Shown: piece by piece, positions 1 to 33,145 of the stretch
Layout: the number at the start of each line of letters is the position of its first letter
Position numbering within the stretch: position 1 is the stretch's first letter
NCBI GenBank assembly: GCA_021791335.1
Contig: JAJYWS010000010.1
Span: forward strand, 1-45,479
Direction of reading: 5' to 3'
Length of the DNA stretch: 45,479 nucleotides
Origin: Thermoplasmata archaeon
GTDB lineage: Archaea; Thermoplasmatota; Thermoplasmata; Lutacidiplasmatales; UBA184
Program-made: the position numbers and the translations under genes
Notes under the pieces: model-generated
Databases searched by the model: none
Told to the model about the DNA's origin: nothing
What the model saw: only the letters and a program-made list of their open reading frames with translations

Positions 1-4
1 TAGA

Positions 5-111
5 CGCCCGTGCTGGGATTCGAACCCAGGTCTGAGGCTCCGCAGGCCTCTAGGATAATCCACTATAGCAGACCGGGACGGTTCCCGTATCCGTAGCTAC
101 CCCACACGGGC
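5..111 (-). tRNA. tRNA-Arg (anticodon GCG) with ~34-nt insertion/intron in the D-loop (about 63..96)
   Basis: Reverse complement gives acceptor GCCCGTG/CACGGGC, anticodon arm GAGGC-CTGCGGA-GCCTC, T arm CTGGG-TTCGAAT-CCCAG. Removing 34 nt after GGGGTAG restores a normal D-loop (AGTGGATTA) and a 73-nt tRNA. Confidence 0.9.
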
Positions 112-32597: not shown

Positions 32598-32705
32598 TGG
32601 GGCTGCCCGAATTTGAATCGGGGTCCCGGGCTCCCAAAGCCCGAAGGATGGACCATTGGTGCGGCGAGGGAGTCGCTCCCCCGGCCGAATCTACCCCACA
32701 GCCCC
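32598..32705 (-). tRNA. tRNA-Pro (anticodon TGG) with ~35-nt insertion/intron in the D-loop
   Basis: Acceptor GGGGCTG/CAGCCCC, anticodon arm CGGGC-TTTGGGA-GCCCG, T arm CCCGA-TTCAAAT-TCGGG. Removing ATTCGGCC...ACCAA after GGGGTAG gives a 73-nt tRNA. Confidence 0.9.
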
Positions 32706-32716
32706 GCATACCGGGC

Positions 32717-33145
32717 CTAAACGGCCTCCACCCGACGAAGCTTGCGGCCGATCCGGCACTCCGCGGGGGCCGCATCGACCTGTTCGATCCGGTAGCGCTG
32801 CTTGGGTGGGAGCGACGGCCCCGCGCAGATCGTCCAGTTCGGACAGTCCACCCGGCGGCAGGCGTAGCGACCCACCTCGATCGAACTACCGGCGACGGCG
32901 ATCGGGGCCTCGACCACCAGGGGTCGGGGAATCCGCTCGACCTCAACGACAGCCGCCGGGCTCTCTTGGAGCTCGCACGGGTGCTGGACCGGACGTACCC
33001 GGGTGACCCGGTAGCGGCGGCCCGAATCGAGCGTCAAACAGGCGTTGCGGTAGGGGCAGGTCCGGCAGACCGGCCCGCCGCCCTGGTAGATGAACGCGTA
33101 GCCCGGGTTCGCCTGCGCCACCGCTAAGAGGGTAATCTCCGGCAT
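32717..33145 (-). CDS. UPF0179 family protein
   Basis: Cys pattern CRTCPYRNACLTLDSGRRYRVTRVR...CRRVDCPNWTICAG. Confidence 0.85.
   Translation of the reverse strand: MPEITLLAVAQANPGYAFIYQGGGPVCRTCPYRNACLTLDSGRRYRVTRVRPVQHPCELQESPAAVVEVERIPRPLVVEAPIAVAGSSIEVGRYACRRVDCPNWTICAGPSLPPKQRYRIEQVDAAPAECRIGRKLRRVEAV

Follow-up and report, generated by a model that had tools for sequence, protein, structure and literature searches.

Outside the canonical 37/38 site, introns of archaeal tRNA genes have been described chiefly in Thermoproteota, Thaumarchaeota, and ARMAN (PMC6379350; PMC8450103), and reviews link them to endonucleases of broad specificity that carry an extra loop (PMC6379350; PMC12397907). 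Reviews describe α′2 endonucleases as narrow, whereas (αβ)2 and ε2 enzymes with a CSL/ASL handle relaxed motifs. Within a full pre-tRNA, EndA from Archaeoglobus fulgidus is able to cleave a relaxed 37/38 motif. The mean number of introns per tRNA gene is 0.21 in archaea and 0.84 in Thermoproteales. Our literature search found no paper on tRNA introns in the lineage described here, and the word "intron" is absent from the genome paper on Lutacidiplasmatales.

The window, the whole stretch of 45,479 nucleotides that was analyzed, is an entire contig (C15) of a 1.41-Mb archaeal genome that is 93% complete. The best named relatives of its splicing endonuclease EndA come from uncultured Thermoplasmata, among them UBA184 and the AcS and SubAcS genomes; UBA184 has been placed in Ca. 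Lutacidiplasmatales by authors who also name an AcS genome of their own (PMC9287336). By sequence comparison, the host is an uncultured Thermoplasmata, a soil-type archaeon related to Ca. Lutacidiplasmatales, with the order placement taken from the similarity of one protein. Its tRNA introns resemble those of Thermoproteales, Thaumarchaeota, and ARMAN in being short, in occupying D-, T-, and anticodon loops, in their bulge-helix-bulge (BHB) or relaxed BHB motifs, in their hairpin core, and in occurring twice in some tRNAs. However, they belong to a Thermoplasmata lineage near Lutacidiplasmatales, their main site is T-loop position 59/60, and the enzyme is α′2 rather than (αβ)2 or ε2. Compared with the canonical 37/38 intron, the EndA/RtcB pathway and the BHB rule are the same, but the position differs, as only 3 of 20 introns here lie in the anticodon loop. 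The intron-bearing genes look functional and the kind of intron is already known; the informative parts are which clade hosts it, how far noncanonical sites dominate, and the enzyme type.

Read along the minus strand, the tRNA-Pro(TGG) gene runs GGGGCTGTGGGGTAG, 35 nt, TGGTCCATCC...CAGCCCC-A, with the insert between GTAG and TGG (Table 1). The 35-nt string and its internal hairpin are as originally predicted, and the insert core folds at -17 kcal/mol (RNAfold). In tRNA-Arg(GCG), an insert occupies the same place, as had been proposed, but it is 34 nt long and not of equal length. ARAGORN in default mode makes no tRNA-Pro(TGG) call, in intron mode it misreads the gene as tRNA-Pro(ggg) with an intron in the anticodon arm, and it truncates tRNA-Arg(GCG) to 5-73. 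Rfam scans at gathering and permissive thresholds found no match at or near the Pro locus because the intron breaks the tRNA model. With the inserts removed, ARAGORN reads tRNA-Pro(tgg) and tRNA-Arg(gcg), and both spliced forms match uninterrupted orthologs. Folding the complete Pro pre-tRNA under constraint was uninformative, since the unconstrained fold is 4 kcal/mol more stable than the cloverleaf. A self-splicing group I or II intron was ruled out, as the insert measures 33-35 nt against a ribozyme core of about 200 nt or more and Rfam is blank at and near the locus. The census of detected tRNA genes contains a single tRNA-Pro with a TGG anticodon, so this gene should be needed.

Table 1. 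Coordinates of the two interrupted tRNA genes and associated features in the window.
Feature	Position	Strand	Basis
tRNA-Pro(TGG), including discriminator base, D-loop interrupted	32598..32705	-	R2 full-length match, 56.8 bits; cloverleaf by inspection
35-nt insert as bounded in the original prediction	32656..32690	-	Direct reading; set against 20 other intron-bearing genomes
Predicted 33-nt intron TCGGCC...GCACCAA, cut GTAGAT^T...AA^TGG	32656..32688	-	Inferred from the standard BHB cut rule and uninterrupted orthologs (3 nt between G15 and G18)
Exon strand GTAG (G12-G15) of proposed central helix	32691..32694	-	Intron pairing 4/4 in 24/24 Arg, 3/4 in 18/21 Pro, 2/4 here
Intron hairpin (helix h') CGGCCGGGGGAG CGA CTCCCTCGCCG	32662..32687	-	Fold of -17 kcal/mol; covariation over 21 genomes
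CACC (proposed central helix, intron strand) and AA (intron part of 3' bulge AA^T)	32656..32661	-	Positional comparison, 45 introns
UPF0179 protein gene, with 11 nt between its stop codon and tRNA-Pro	32717..33145	-	Pfam PF03684, E 2.3e-33; upstream sequences in relatives
tRNA-Arg(GCG), interrupted at the same D-loop site as Pro	5..111	-	R2 match, 58.1 bits
Predicted 32-nt tRNA-Arg(GCG) intron, cut GTAGCT^A...AG^TGG	63..94	-	Same geometry; central helix GTAG/CTAT 4/4, one G-U

The two genes differ in their surroundings. tRNA-Pro(TGG) begins just past the UPF0179 stop codon without a TATA-like box, and its upstream region is similar in most relatives of the genus; the gene is probably co-transcribed with UPF0179 and processed out of the mRNA. 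In nearly all relatives, by contrast, a TTTATA-type box precedes tRNA-Arg(GCG) by about 50 nt. The contig breaks just past the 3' end of tRNA-Arg(GCG) (window 1-111), and several other contigs also end at or near tRNA genes.

The presence or absence of the inserts was compared across relatives, as the original prediction had proposed. In a pattern search of 40 relatives, tRNA-Pro with an insert of 33-38 nt at the same site was found in 20 of the 24 other genomes of the genus, the four without a match being incomplete. tRNA-Arg(GCG) is interrupted in 21 of the 24 and also, by 23 nt, in G026, a genome from another family of the order (f3). Given this recurrence at one site, the Pro insert is not due to chance. 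Pro orthologs have an uninterrupted D-loop in eight genomes of other families (e.g., GTGGGGTAGCTTGGTCCATCC in f3), while in family f2 the Pro genes carry an intron in the anticodon loop instead. For Arg, f2 and five further families of the class have a D-loop without interruption. Insert-less orthologs in related families read GTAGCTTGG for Pro and GTAGTTTGG or GTAGCTTGG for Arg. Across 21 genomes, the Pro exons are near-identical and the intron diverges, and exon stems, the anticodon stem included, show compensatory changes (CGAGC/GCTCG, CGGGT/ACCCG). Pairs 2, 4, and 5 of the intron hairpin are formed in 21, 20, and 20 of 21 genomes versus 17.4, 12.8, and 11.3 in shuffles, which indicates covariation. 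A general D-arm pattern search found no third tRNA with this insertion in the genus. A pattern match on contig 36 of G026, apparently a further D-loop intron, proved not to be a tRNA.

The Pro and Arg inserts are very probably ordinary archaeal BHB introns at a noncanonical D-loop position that are cut by EndA. This explanation builds on the observed gene anatomy, conservation, covariation, insert-less orthologs, and EndA and RtcB genes, from which we infer cutting, exact cut sites, and ligation. The intron would sit in the D-loop after nucleotide 17. In the precursor, exon nucleotides G12-G15 (GTAG) would pair with a CTNN close to the intron's 3' end, with the remaining intron forming the hairpin. 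This pairing would leave two bulges for the homodimeric α′2 EndA to cut, NN^N on the 5' side and AN^T on the 3' side, and RtcB would be expected to ligate the halves. The mature Pro D-loop would then read AG-AT-T-GG-TCC-A, a length found in uninterrupted orthologs.

Arg and Pro differ in the intron alignment and BHB check that had been suggested. GTAG can pair with a CTGC, CTAC, or CTAT that starts six nt before TGG in all 24 Arg introns. The GTAG/CT(A/G)(C/T) helix is complete (4/4), the spacing is an invariant 3 nt (a 5' bulge of 3 nt), and the 3' side is AN^T, each in 24/24. Pro has the same layout, but nearly all genomes place a C opposite T13 of the central helix, and the gene in the window pairs at 2/4. 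The motif fits on the intron side in Arg-GCG (24/24) and has one mismatch in most Pro genes and two here. Because the outer helix is not adjacent to the 3' bulge, the motif is of the relaxed HBh' type, which α′2 enzymes reportedly cut poorly. This and the weak central helix in Pro count against the proposed mechanism, as does an alternative register that pairs better there. That register, which joins GTAG to the last four intron nucleotides (CTAC), was rejected: it fails in Arg, and a cut by the rule would delete the conserved G of G18G19.

Archaeal splicing endonucleases cut between nucleotides 2 and 3 of each bulge. The spacing that would result in Arg, AG-CT-T-GG, equals that of uninterrupted orthologs and of Pro-CGG, Pro-GGG, Arg-TCG, His, and initiator Met in the host genome. 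On these two grounds, the introns are most likely 33 nt (Pro) and 32 nt (Arg) long, with the first two nucleotides of each insert belonging to the exon, a placement we hold with moderate confidence. Removal of exactly the 35 nt between GTAG and TGG, leaving one nucleotide between G15 and G18, is unlikely. Such boundaries would agree with the invariance that stops at GTAG and restarts at TGG in 21/21 Pro genes and with the AGTGG D-loops of other host tRNAs, such as Val-GAC, and ARAGORN takes either spliced product. However, nearly all uninterrupted GGGGTAG-type tRNAs have 3 nt at this place (CTT, TCT, TTT, CAT), the rule of a 3-nt 5' bulge puts the cut two nucleotides further inside, and most genomes have CT after GTAG, like the orthologs.

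The insert might instead stay unspliced and lengthen the D-arm of the mature tRNA as a hairpin, as its stability would allow, but this is very improbable. The splice-type bulge geometry persists while intron sequence and length drift freely, the genome encodes EndA and RtcB, and the inserts at 59/60 in the T-loops of 13 tRNAs would hardly be tolerable in mature molecules. Still less credible, to the point of being negligible, is that the genes are pseudogenes or the inserts assembly or sequencing errors. The window does end at tRNA-Arg, and contig ends are prone to assembly failure, but the same inserts recur in about 20 other assemblies with conserved exons and covarying introns. Nor do the genes look like non-functional duplicates, part of the outcome named at the outset as refuting the prediction, as they are the sole ones detected for their anticodons.

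A separate matter is origin. The Pro intron could tentatively be regarded as a copy of an older Arg-GCG intron, transposed between genes with the same D-arm. The Arg intron also occurs in f3, whereas the Pro intron was observed in the genus only, and in several genomes a single contig carries both genes, 5-41 kb from each other. Both introns share CTACGG...CCGCT in most relatives, so the proposal that they have a site but no sequence in common applies mainly to the host genome and a few others. Against transposition, shared intron ends may reflect functional constraint, Pro and Arg introns are no more alike within a genome than across genomes (p 0.34), and the f3 sample is a single genome.

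Introns are widespread in the host genome. An intron-tolerant covariance model (R2, matches over 41 bits), applied through model searches and to selected genome stretches, detected 38 tRNA genes. As had been anticipated, many tRNAs are affected: 19 genes are interrupted by 20 introns, of which 13 lie in the T-loop at 59/60, four in the D-loop, and three in the anticodon loop. The census is incomplete, as R2 did not find some expected tRNAs of the host genome, including Trp. D-loop introns interrupt Arg-GCG, Pro-TGG, initiator Met, and Lys-TTT, and anticodon-loop introns a CAT tRNA, Tyr, and Leu-TAA. T-loop introns occur in Arg-TCT, Arg-TCG (intron end taken from the genomic sequence, as the R2 match is truncated there), Asn, Ala-GGC, Glu-CTC, Lys-TTT (its second intron), Gly-TCC, Ser-GCT, Ser-CGA, Ser-GGA, Gln-CTG, Asp, and His. 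The T-loop set fits an hBHBh' motif at 59/60 in which TTCR pairs with the intron (45/52 central pairs). The base opposite nucleotide 57 tracks it, being C in 5/6 introns with G57 and 0/7 with A57 (Fisher p 0.005).

This distribution bears on the idea that insertion recurs at TGGGGTAG with a special specificity for TGGGGTAG^TGG. Recurrence holds across the genus but extends to only two tRNAs per genome, and most introns lie elsewhere. The specificity itself finds no support. Only Pro-TGG and Arg-GCG are interrupted at that site in the host genome, the GGGGTAG-type genes Pro-CGG and Pro-GGG are uninterrupted, and Arg-TCG and His, with the same D-arm, carry introns in the T-loop, where 13/20 of all introns reside. 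Moreover, GTAGNN^N...AN^TGG is the better placement of the cut, and one insert is 1 nt longer than the other.

The host EndA is encoded by a single gene (354 aa, contig 8) with two endonuclease units (two PF01974 matches within the ORF). Alignment to known EndA enzymes assigns the catalytic residues Y292, H300, and K331 to the C-terminal unit, and the triad is kept in all 65 homologs readable by motif search. A 6-residue linker stands where the crenarchaeal loop sits, as in A. fulgidus EndA; a 20-residue "linker" in one homolog (L101) was a regex artefact. No separate β subunit, third unit, or CSL/ASL loop was found, the host genome having one two-unit gene only, and relatives contain no extra subunit gene except a contig-end fragment in G011. 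By these sequence features, the enzyme is of the α′2 type without a CSL/ASL loop. An RtcB gene is present (PF01139, E 2.9e-167). Like the α′2 enzymes of A. fulgidus and Thermoplasma acidophilum, the host EndA has one gene, two units, a C-terminal Y-H-K triad, and no CSL/ASL insertion. Unlike them, it must serve noncanonical introns in about 85% of cases (17/20), if nothing else assists.

With 0.53 introns per detected tRNA gene, 17/20 of them noncanonical, and a loop-less α′2 enzyme, this genome is a test case for the model of intron-endonuclease co-evolution. The chances are about even that such an enzyme processes introns rich in D- and T-loop sites, including relaxed HBh' motifs, so that broad intron use would need no CSL/ASL. 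Either its specificity would be wider than that of known α′2 enzymes or the introns would be held to near-strict geometry. As intron-blind tRNA finders miss or misread many such genes, the tRNA genes of metagenome-assembled Thermoplasmata genomes may be undercounted.

Introns in D- and T-loops also occur in two other sampled families of the order and in one other family of the class. In four families of the class (f1, f2, f3, and f5; L193, L214, L201, and L231), tRNA-Lys(TTT) is interrupted twice, in the D-loop and in the T-loop, so these introns may be old. Short AT-rich D-loop introns are found in Thr-TGT, Arg-CCT, Arg-TCT, and Thr-CGT of G026 (L195, L197, L200, and L204). In G039, of the same class, several tRNA genes (L216, L218, and L220-L224) carry a near-identical anticodon-loop intron, AAGCCCCTTTAAAAAG..GGCTTTACCCGTAAAGGGGCTT, which suggests that one intron was copied among them.
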